Assembly: GCF_007993045.1 (NCBI RefSeq)
Contig: NZ_VOOR01000003.1
Coordinates: 1 to 64,000 of the forward strand
Source: Phaeodactylibacter luteus
Lineage (GTDB): Bacteria; Bacteroidota; Bacteroidia; Chitinophagales; Saprospiraceae
Direction: 5' to 3'
Length of the DNA: 64,000 nucleotides
Shown: positions 18,379 to 55,029 of the stretch, piece after piece
How the letters are laid out: the number at the start of each line of letters is the position of its first letter
Position numbering within the stretch: position 1 is the first letter of the stretch
The notes under the pieces: generated by a model
Databases searched by the model: none
What the model was told of the DNA's origin: nothing
What the model saw: only the letters and a program-made list of their open reading frames with translations
Translations under genes and position numbers: made by a program

Positions 18379-18541
18379 GTGCCTCAAGCCACAAATCCTT
18401 GACAACCCAAGTTTCGTTCTTTTCCGCCTACTCTTCGTTAAAGAACCGCTCCTTTAGCTCGGGCTAAAGTCGCGAACCTTCGCCTCGATTAGCCAGAAAA
18501 CAACTTCAGCTTAAGTATCAGAGATTTATGACTTAAGGCAC
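18379..18541 (-). mobile_element. Family A TIR element, copy A1 (163 bp)
   Basis: Begins GTGCCTCAAGCC and ends CTTAAGGCAC, flanked by CTAG at 18376-18379 and 18541-18544. Inside are CTACTCTTCGTT, the central CTTTAGC/GCTAAAG hairpin and a CGCCTCGATTAGCC variant of the second core motif. There is no coding capacity, so it is a non-autonomous (MITE-like) element. Its right end lies over the 3' end of the 18533-18784 gene and supplies its stop codon. Confidence 0.85.
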
Positions 18542-28789: not shown

Positions 28790-28965
28790 GGGGGTGAGCC
28801 AAAATGCCGCAGGTGTTTATGCTTTTCGGGCTTTAGCCTGGCAATGGACTAGCGCTGCGCAGGGGTGGCCGAAGGCCAGACCCGACGCCTGTAGGGCGAG
28901 GGGCCGAGCGGACAGCGAGCCCCGTAGCATAGCGGCACCTGCCCGCAGGCAGGGGCAGGCCCATC
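28790..28965 (+). repeat. R1 repeat, subtype I (copy f, long form)
   Basis: A long R1 copy: GAGCCAAAATGCCGC..GTTTATGC..TTCGGGCTTTAGCCTGGCAATGG leads into CTAGCGCTGCGCAGGGG, the GGGCCGAGCGG core and a CCTGCC-CGCA-GGCAGG hairpin. It carries an extra segment (GAAGGCCAGACCCGACGC) inside the core. The left part shows the uninterrupted form of the site where element A2 sits near 39842. Confidence 0.8.
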
Positions 28966-28980
28966 CCACAAAGCAGGCTA

Positions 28981-29143
28981 GTGGTCTGTCAAGGCTAAAA
29001 CTAGGGGTTGCCTGCGGCGACTTTTGAGGCTACTCTTCGTTGGACAACCCCTTACGTAGCGCTGCTATGCGCGGGAACATCCGCCTTGATTAGCCTCAAA
29101 ATTCGCTCCCACTCAACCCATAAATTAACACTTGACAGACCAC
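28981..29143. mobile_element. Family B TIR element, copy B1 (163 bp)
   Basis: Perfect 13-base terminal inverted repeats (GTGGTCTGTCAAG and its complement) flanked by CTAG at 28978-28981 and 29143-29146. It has the same length as family A, with CTACTCTTCGTT at the same offset (50-61) and CGCCTTGATTA one base earlier (102-112). Terminal, subterminal (TTTTGAGGCT/AGCCTCAAAA) and central (CGTAGC/GCTATG) stems occupy the same places as in family A but have different sequence. Non-coding. Confidence 0.85.
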
Positions 29144-29303
29144 TAGGCAGGCAAAAAAACGACAATCTGGTTTGCGCCCGTGAGGGAGCCATGTCCATAA
29201 AGCATTGGTTTGCAATAGGAACAAGCCCTAAACACGCGCCCAGCAGTACAGGCTGCCTGCTAAAGCCCCAACAGCGCTCAACAGCCCACTAGCGCTGCTG
29301 CTA

Positions 29304-39803: not shown

Positions 39804-39807
39804 ACCA

Positions 39808-40113
39808 GAACATCGCAGGCGTTTATGCTCTTCGGGCTCTAGTGCCTCAAGCCATAAATCCTTGCCACCCCGAGCTTCGTTCTTTTCCGCCTACTCTTCG
39901 TTAAAGAACCGCTCCTTTAGCTCGGGCTAAAGTCGCGAACCTTCGCCTTGATTAACCGGAAAATAACTTCAACTTAAGTATCAGAGATTTATGGCTTAAG
40001 GCACTAGCCTGGCATTGGCCTAGCGCTGCGCAGGGGTGTCAAGCCCGTTAGGGCCGAGCGGATAGCGAGCCCCGAAGCATAGCGGCACCTGCCATCGGGC
40101 AGGGGCAGGCCCC
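39808..40113 (+). repeat. R1 repeat, subtype I (copy h), split by element A2
   Basis: The left arm (CATCGCAGGCGTTTATGC..TTCGGGCTCTAG, 39808-39842) is interrupted by element A2 and resumes at 40005 with TAGCCTGGCATTGGCCTAGCGCTGCGCAGGGG, the GGGCCGAGCGG core and CCTGCC-ATCG-GGCAGG. The uninterrupted version is the copy at 28790. A short extra GGAGGGGGCAGGCCC follows. The gap 39804-40279 holds no gene. Confidence 0.8.
39842..40004 (-). mobile_element. Family A TIR element, copy A2 (163 bp)
   Basis: Termini GTGCCTCAAGCCATAAATC and GATTTATGGCTTAAGGCAC pair over 19 bases with one mismatch. CTAG flanks at 39839-39842 and 40004-40007. It has TTTTCCG/CGGAAAA as subterminal stem, CTTTAGC-TCGG-GCTAAAG as central hairpin and the core motifs CTACTCTTCGTT and CGCCTTGATTA. 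Same orientation as A1. Non-coding. Confidence 0.9.
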
Positions 40114-40279
40114 TATCCTTGCGGAGGGGGCAGGCCCAAAAAACGGCCCTCTGTTTGCGCCCTTGGCTGAAGCCTTAGCCCAGCCAAGACATCCTGCCGC
40201 CGCAGTTAAACTTCCACCAGGCTTTTGCGTTGGGATGTATGAAATATTGCCCGCCAGTTGCCATTTTCAAATTGATTTT

Positions 40280-46950: not shown

Positions 46951-47270
46951 TGGGGCCTGCCCCTGCCAGCGGGCAGGTGCCGCTATGCTCCGGGGCTCGC
47001 TATCCGCTCGGCCCTGTCGGGCTTGCCACCCCTGCGCAGCGCTAGTGCCTTAAGTCATAAACCTCTGATACTTAAGTTGAAGTTATTTTCCGGCTAATCA
47101 AGGCTAAGGTTCGCTCCTTTAGCCCGAGCTAAAGGAGCGGTTCTTTAACGAAGAGTAGGCGGAAAAGAACGAAACTTGGGGTGGCAAGGATTTATGGCTT
47201 GAGGCACTAGGCCAATGCCAAGCTAAAGCCCGAAAAACATAATCGCCAGCGACATTTTGGCCTACGCCCA
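46951..47270 (-). repeat. R1 repeat, subtype I (copy i), split by element A3
   Basis: CCTGCC-AGCG-GGCAGG, the GGGGCTCGC..GCTCGGCCC block and GCGCAGCGCTAG run to 47044. After element A3 the repeat resumes with TAGGCCAATGCCAAGCTAAAGCCCG and continues to about 47270. The copy at 2001 is the uninterrupted form. It lies between the convergent GH13-like and rimM genes. Confidence 0.85.
47044..47207 (+). mobile_element. Family A TIR element, copy A3 (about 164 bp), inserted in R1
   Basis: Begins GTGCCTTAAGTCATAAA and ends TTTATGGCTTGAGGCAC. CTAG lies at 47041-47044 and 47207-47210. The central hairpin is longest here: GCTCCTTTAGC / GCTAAAGGAGC. Orientation is opposite to A1 and A2. Its surrounding R1 sequence shows both the site and its duplication. 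Confidence 0.92.
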
Positions 47271-54866: not shown

Positions 54867-55029
54867 GTGCCTTAAGTCATAAATCTCTGATACTTAAGCT
54901 GAAGTTATTTCCCGGCTAACCAAGGCGAAGGTTCGCTCCTTTAGCCCGAGCTAAAGGGGTGGTTCTTTAACGAAGAGTAGGCGGAAAAGAACGAAACTTG
55001 GGGTGTCAAGGATTTGTGGGTTGAGACAC
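54867..55029 (+). mobile_element. Family A TIR element, copy A4 (163 bp)
   Basis: Begins GTGCCTTAAGTCATAAATC and ends GATTTGTGGGTTGAGACAC, with CTAG at 54864-54867 and 55029-55032. Both core motifs are kept (one base change in the second). The right terminus has several substitutions, so this is the most diverged A copy. Same orientation as A3. An R1 copy follows 23 bp downstream. Confidence 0.88.

Follow-up and report, generated by a model that had tools for sequence, protein, structure and literature searches.

How can two families of repeats in one genome share a core and a fold when the sequences of their stems differ, and which part of them is under selection? This question is raised by element B1 of family B and by the copies of family A in the genome of Phaeodactylibacter luteus. 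Both families are found in the window, which is the whole stretch of 64,000 nucleotides that was analysed (contig NZ_VOOR01000003.1, positions 1 to 64,000).

B1 is a 163-bp ERIC-type hairpin MITE at positions 28981..29143, with its folded core on the minus strand; loops and stems are described here for the strand opposite to the printed one. The TA target duplication, to which no strand is assigned, lies at 28979..28980 on the left, in a CTAG site, and at 29144..29145 on the right. On the minus strand, the conserved internal loop has AUCAAGGC on its 5' side (29083..29090) and AACGAAGAG on its 3' side (29033..29041). The loop lies between stem 1, formed by UUUUGAGGCUA on the 5' side (29091..29101) and UAGCCUCAAAA on the 3' side (29022..29032) of the folded strand, and a part that holds stems 2 and 3 and the apical loop (29042..29082); both stem 1 and this inner part covary. 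The family A copy at 39842..40004 (minus) is inserted within the CTAG of a larger repeat and has the AACGAAGAG loop strand at 39894..39902 and the AUCAAGGC loop strand at 39945..39952, both on the minus strand. Other family A copies are found at 47045..47207 (core on the plus strand), at 18379..18541 (minus; loop AUCGAGGC) and at 54867..55029 (plus; loop altered to ACCAAGGC).

A sequence-only reading of this DNA had described both elements as exactly 163 bp long, with a common fold and differing stem sequences. This description is borne out; A and B each form one long hairpin with an equal series of stems and loops. The reading also gave two common strings. The first, CTACTCTTCGTT, is at offset 50-61 in both families; the second, given at offset 102-113, is likewise present in both as CGCCTTGATTA, but its offsets differ by one base (102-112 for B, 103-113 for A). 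Ungapped identity between A and B is 62/163 (shuffles, 41.4 +/- 5.5), and the likeness is concentrated at offsets 41-122, which are 71% identical (E 1.5e-5). Predicted folding is stronger on the strand opposite to the printed one, at -76.9 versus -51.5 kcal/mol for family A and -83.9 versus -72.2 kcal/mol for family B. A and B1 are flanked by CTA on the left and TAG on the right; these bound nearly all listed A and B copies, which have the TA ends and TA target duplication that are typical of ERIC.

The core matches are not confined to the B1 copy; such confinement would have refuted the sequence-only reading. Family B has 40 copies in the genome with 98-100% identity and is also present in four of the five other genomes of the genus, and the exact core pattern occurs 170 times in the 6.0-Mb genome. 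A covariance model for which A and B were the sole input accepted each of the 150 candidates supplied to it. The 72 distinct A or B copies that were checked are all located outside ORFs. Their orientation relative to neighbouring genes is approximately random (15 same, 21 opposite, 14 convergent and 18 divergent); a cis-regulatory role in the sense of the neighbouring genes is unsupported, as there is no orientation bias among the 72 copies. Tandem copies have a single TA in common, as expected of TA-targeted insertion. In a third family of the same genome, C, the pair that closes the loop is G-C instead of A-U, a compensatory change.

Several further repeats were noticed. Family A is located at the same CTAG of the larger repeat in 16 of 20 loci examined, compared with 1 of 20 for B (window positions 39806-40120 and about 28816-28970); the larger repeat also exists without A, which gives a near-empty site (CGGGCTTTAGCCTGGCA). 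Directly to the right of B, the loci L016 and L017 contain family D, a 195-bp TA-flanked hairpin that lacks the AUCRAGGC/AACGAAGAG loop. B-family elements longer than 163 bp, of 187 and 224 bp (L051, L048), occur in other genomes of the genus; in L051, a hairpin is inserted within the core.

The constant part of the folded strand is the internal loop 5'-AUCRAGGC / 5'-AACGAAGAG. Among 50 aligned cores from about 25 genera, all 27 stem pairs have changes on both sides; a lack of covariation, which would have refuted the sequence-only reading, is not what is seen. Cells with changes on both sides number 393 against 131 expected and at most 135 in slid controls, and 90.6% of stem cells are paired; as the 50-row alignment was fitted to the structure of the model, these counts lean towards it. 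The covariation score is 0.714, compared with 0.178 for shuffled rows and at most 0.174 for slid partners (50 rows; a 53-row alignment was also run), and covariation is seen again in 12 long forms. Since the flanking stems are kept only as pairing, the alignment establishes selection on a predicted folded single strand, either RNA or ssDNA. G.U pairs outnumber A.C mismatches on the folded strand (110 versus 37; by rows, 37 versus 8), and an excess of this kind on one strand indicates that this is the strand that folds.

In the same alignment the loop bases are fixed while the stems covary; most rows were gathered by the exact loop motif, and the invariance is therefore partly ascertained. A relaxed-motif scan of 0.82 Mb gave 69 exact matches and no structural matches with one to three mismatches, in loci that had themselves been chosen by exact motif. 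The loop can vary, as is demonstrated by variants that were retrieved through the model or through similarity, namely ACCAAGGC in the family A copy at 54867-55029, and AGCAAGGC/AACGCAGTG in locus L095.

Covariation might also be a by-product of palindrome correction, in which template switching maintains complementarity between the arms, with the loop passed on unselected. Palindrome correction is known for quasi-palindromes, and the elements are long near-perfect hairpins. However, the mismatched loop would be the first part to be corrected away, yet the same 17 bases are found across phyla while the stems turn over completely; this explanation is very unlikely. If a nucleoid or transposition protein bound the core as duplex DNA, like IHF in Correia elements, this would account for the high sequence conservation of the core, and bacterial MITEs that contain an IHF site have been described (PMC2229807). 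Such a site is scarcely credible for a core in which two conserved blocks are split by stems that are free in sequence and kept in pairing, because a duplex site needs no distant pairing. By eye, an IHF site (no consensus) and an attC site (no R-box at the 3' end) were considered and dropped. The core is a folded module that is conserved in its own right.

Flavo-1 RNA (Rfam RF01705) is a structured Bacteroidetes repeat with a superficially similar loop; Flavo-1 and the core are both hairpins of Bacteroidota, and the core of family C aligns with Flavo-1 end to end. That the core is a divergent Flavo-1 is nevertheless extremely improbable. The alignment, at 23.9 bits the best obtained, is below the gathering score of 42 and concerns one core variant only, while none of 20 other core loci matches at E values up to 10. 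The Rfam search of the window gave no match at the gathering cut-off, and filing the element as Flavo-1 was rejected since the weak family C match did not extend to the 20 other loci. Better-scoring Flavo-1 matches in the family, among those examined, belong to a different repeat. These Saprospiraceae matches (L118-L136) seem to represent another conserved repeat, of the form GCGTGARGGATAG-hairpin-AGCGGATAGCCYGACC-hairpin-GGGCACGCCC, which apparently makes up a three-way junction.

A single DDE_3 protein is present in the genome; NCBIfam identifies it as an IS630 transposase (9e-38). It is encoded within a 1260-bp TA-flanked element with two overlapping ORFs (L117:1339-2598), whose ends, GTGGTCTGTCAA...GGGGTTG, are B-like. 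P. xiamenensis contains the same 1260-bp IS, once directly adjoining a B element, and a second IS630 with family A-like ends. The 25-base ends of 15 MITEs were compared with those of eight IS630 elements; shuffled ends reached a maximum of 17 in 4800 trials. The best matches are with an IS630 of the same genome or genus. The B ends, which in B1 are GTGGTCTGTCAAGGCTAAAACTAGGGGTTG on the left (28981..29010, plus strand) and GTGGTCTGTCAAGTG... on the right (29114..29143, minus strand), match the resident IS630 (L117) at 22/25 bases, and the A ends match the P. xiamenensis IS at 20/25. Further matches within genome or genus are found for family D (18/25, with a P. xiamenensis IS630), G079 (23/25) and Flammeovirga (19/25). 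Across genera, the B-type IS gives 19 with a B-like MITE from G067, and a G067 IS gives 18 with the L166 MITE of G140. Among the eight IS630 elements there is no clear partner for C, G019, G125, G140 L108 or G175; no family A-matching IS630 was found in this assembly, and the closest is that of P. xiamenensis.

A and B share with IS630/Tc1-mariner transposons the TA target, the CTAG site and matching ends. Unlike A and B, these transposons carry transposase genes and do not contain the hairpin core; it is absent from the IS630 elements compared. With ends that match an IS630 of the same genome or genus at a TA site, A and B have the properties of IS630-mobilised MITEs, and they are probably mobilised in trans. 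The ends differ between families because each family appears to follow a different IS630. The earlier view that selection acts on folded RNA or ssDNA, and not only on transposase-binding ends, is supported: the stems covary, and the ends follow the resident IS630 independently of the core. To our knowledge, the AUCRAGGC/AACGAAGAG loop is not known in RUP (Streptococcus pneumoniae) or Correia/NEMIS elements (Neisseria), which are likened to A and B by description. Both are short TA-flanked MITEs whose transcripts fold, and RUP ends match IS630-Spn1 (PMC2229807). IS630-like ends have been reported for MITEPlu5, an ERIC relative in Photorhabdus (PMC6267812); matching ends to IS630 thus extends a known observation.

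The elements are modular. The element at L117:2760-2921, which adjoins the IS630, is a chimera with its junction at the core; its left arm is 90% identical to A, and its apex/core and right arm are 100% identical to B. A mosaic in P. xiamenensis (L264) has A-like arms (77-83%) and a B-like apex (93%), with a stem 1 that is new yet self-complementary. These two elements indicate that families exchange arms and apices within the common core.

The core is widely distributed. In the family, the pattern ATCRAGGC-N32..60-AACGAAGAG is present in 30 of 149 sampled genomes and 26 of 112 genera; a reversed-pattern control in the same genomes gave almost no matches. An exact-pattern scan of named species genomes matched many Saprospiraceae, other Bacteroidota (Flammeovirga, Flavobacteriales, Psychroflexus), Campylobacterota (Sulfurimonas, Hydrogenimonas, Campylobacterales), Victivallaceae, relatives of Bdellovibrio (Bdellovibrionales) and Gammaproteobacteria (Shewanella, Vibrio, Cellvibrionaceae, Aliiglaciecola, Kangiella, Legionella). 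Nearly all of these matches have paired stems on both sides despite differing stem sequences; a match in Sporosarcina (L192) has no stems and is regarded as a chance match. Model R2, for which only Saprospiraceae were used in training, recovers elements outside this family with E values of 1e-14 to 3e-4, and finds 112 copies in Flammeovirga aprica, 28 in Vibrio superstes and 10 in each of two further genomes, one from Victivallaceae and one from Hydrogenimonas. Viral spread was considered and rejected, as two forms of the pattern gave just one and zero matches in viral contigs.

Some copies are located in transcribed places, namely tRNA neighbourhoods and rRNA operons. An ERIC-type element lies antisense between tRNA-Ile and 23S in an rRNA operon of Aliiglaciecola (L217:1784-1865), and another lies about 30 bases upstream of 23S in an rRNA operon of Legionella (L259:102-202). 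An ERIC-type core and a tRNA in a Saprospiraceae contig (G140:C659) are adjoined by a sequence that matches the 3' part of GOLLD RNA (L166:1-95, E 5e-9).

ERIC (IRU, RU-1) of enterobacteria and Vibrio, including MITEEc1 and MITEPlu5, resembles A and B in being an intergenic long-hairpin MITE with TA ends and TA duplication. It also has the same internal loop (RAGGC/AACG), in register and with covarying stems. In contrast to ERIC, A and B are 163 bp and not 127 bp long, have different terminal repeats (GTGGTCTGTCAAG or GTGCCTYAAGCC), are hosted by Bacteroidota, and have a shorter apex without the ERIC primer sequences. They do not contain the ERIC central palindrome AGGAGCTTACATnnGTAAGTGACT (ERIC1R/ERIC2), a form of which is present in the gammaproteobacterial long forms; in several of these the apex GGAGCnUACAUnnGUAnGUGAC is the ERIC central palindrome. 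A and B are consequently not ERIC in the strict sense. On its other strand, the published E. coli ERIC consensus (PMC2759123) has the loop AGCAAGGC / AACGCAGCU, which differs from AUCRAGGC/AACGAAGAG in three ways: G-C takes the place of U-A, A-U that of an A.G mismatch, and C that of one A. A Saprospiraceae element (L095:1254-1337) has the loop AGCAAGGC/AACGCAGTG.

Model R3 was built from 12 long forms, all gammaproteobacterial (including Legionella) except for one from Sulfurimonas, without ERIC and without Saprospiraceae. It recovers A, B and C (E values 1.1e-7, 2.2e-9 and 4.4e-12) as well as elements of the other 22 sources, in each case on the expected strand. It also matches genuine ERICs across its entire length, with the loop in register, at E values of 1.4e-8 for Pantoea, 6.8e-8 for Klebsiella aerogenes, 2.2e-7 and 1.1e-5 for Citrobacter, 1.7e-5 for Klebsiella and 1.3e-3 for Salmonella. 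The individual ERIC copies from E. coli that were compared match in the apical hairpin only (E 0.005), and the Yersinia ERIC has no full-length match (E 2.4). Model R2 matches ERIC in register with E values of only 0.03-0.09, and direct BLAST of ERIC against eight gammaproteobacterial genomes gave short matches only. A model from which both groups were left out thus recovers both in the same register and on the same strand, except for full-length matches to the E. coli and Yersinia copies, and the stems around the loop are conserved as pairing only (27/27 pairs). These two properties mark the ERIC structural superfamily as it is defined here, and A and B have both. ERIC copies are known in Vibrio and Yersinia (PMC2267715); in the part of the literature that was searched, no report was found that places ERIC relatives outside Gammaproteobacteria.

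A and B are probably IS630-mobilised MITEs of the ERIC structural superfamily, with a separately selected core that may be recognised at the RNA level. The sequence-only reading was right about selection on the folded strand; neither the kinship with ERIC nor the mobilising IS630 was noticed in it. More tentatively, and with some doubt, it is possible that the loop and its covarying stems are a structured-RNA module common to ERIC and to repeats of Bacteroidota, Campylobacterota, Victivallaceae, Bdellovibrionales and other Gammaproteobacteria; a conserved cellular factor would recognise this module, different IS630s would have captured it repeatedly, and ERIC would be the enterobacterial tip of a cross-phylum family.

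Judging from the ends, the TA duplications and the resident transposons, an IS630 transposase would bind the terminal inverted repeats and bring about insertion at TA, in the present case within CTAG. The body forms one long imperfect hairpin with the internal loop AUCRAGGC/AACGAAGAG (in ERIC, AGCAAGGC/AACGCAGCU) mid-way, and recombination in the common core swaps arms and apex between families, as in the two mosaics. In the weakest step, a widespread cellular RNA-binding or RNA-processing factor would recognise the hairpin in read-through transcripts. Such recognition would make insertions between or beside co-transcribed genes tolerable, in a manner comparable to the effects of Yersinia ERIC RNA. 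By this analogy, RNA-level processing or tolerance is our best guess for the role of the loop; it ranks first because Yersinia ERIC RNA influences the stability of mRNA (summaries in PMC2229807 and PMC10969869) and copies are found in transcribed places.

A role of the hairpin as single-stranded DNA also has to be considered, as the copies are not biased in orientation relative to genes. The hairpin would form in DNA during lagging-strand synthesis or transposition, and a factor of the host or of transposition would bind the loop and raise transposition frequency. The element is mobile, any folded single strand would account for covariation and for more G.U than A.C, and some copies are antisense in transcribed units, as in the Aliiglaciecola rRNA operon (L217). 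However, IS630/Tc1-mariner transposases work on double-stranded ends, and G-T pairs are weaker in DNA, which makes a strong one-strand bias less expected. ISY100 is described as requiring nothing beyond its transposase (PMC2170065). We consider this role rather unlikely and prefer recognition of the core as RNA.

ERIC, a TA-ended hairpin, has been in use for typing for decades, and a review notes that, apart from its terminal repeats, it had yielded no sequence motif (PMC2229807). The internal-loop motif and the covarying stems across phyla provide a concrete target for finding the RNA or ssDNA binder of ERIC. Ends that follow the transposase while the core stays constant describe a modular evolution of bacterial MITEs, and the persistence of ERIC-type repeats becomes testable through 17 loop bases. 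As far as sequence comparison goes, a loop that is constant across several phyla points to a previously unrecognised structured-RNA or ssDNA module.
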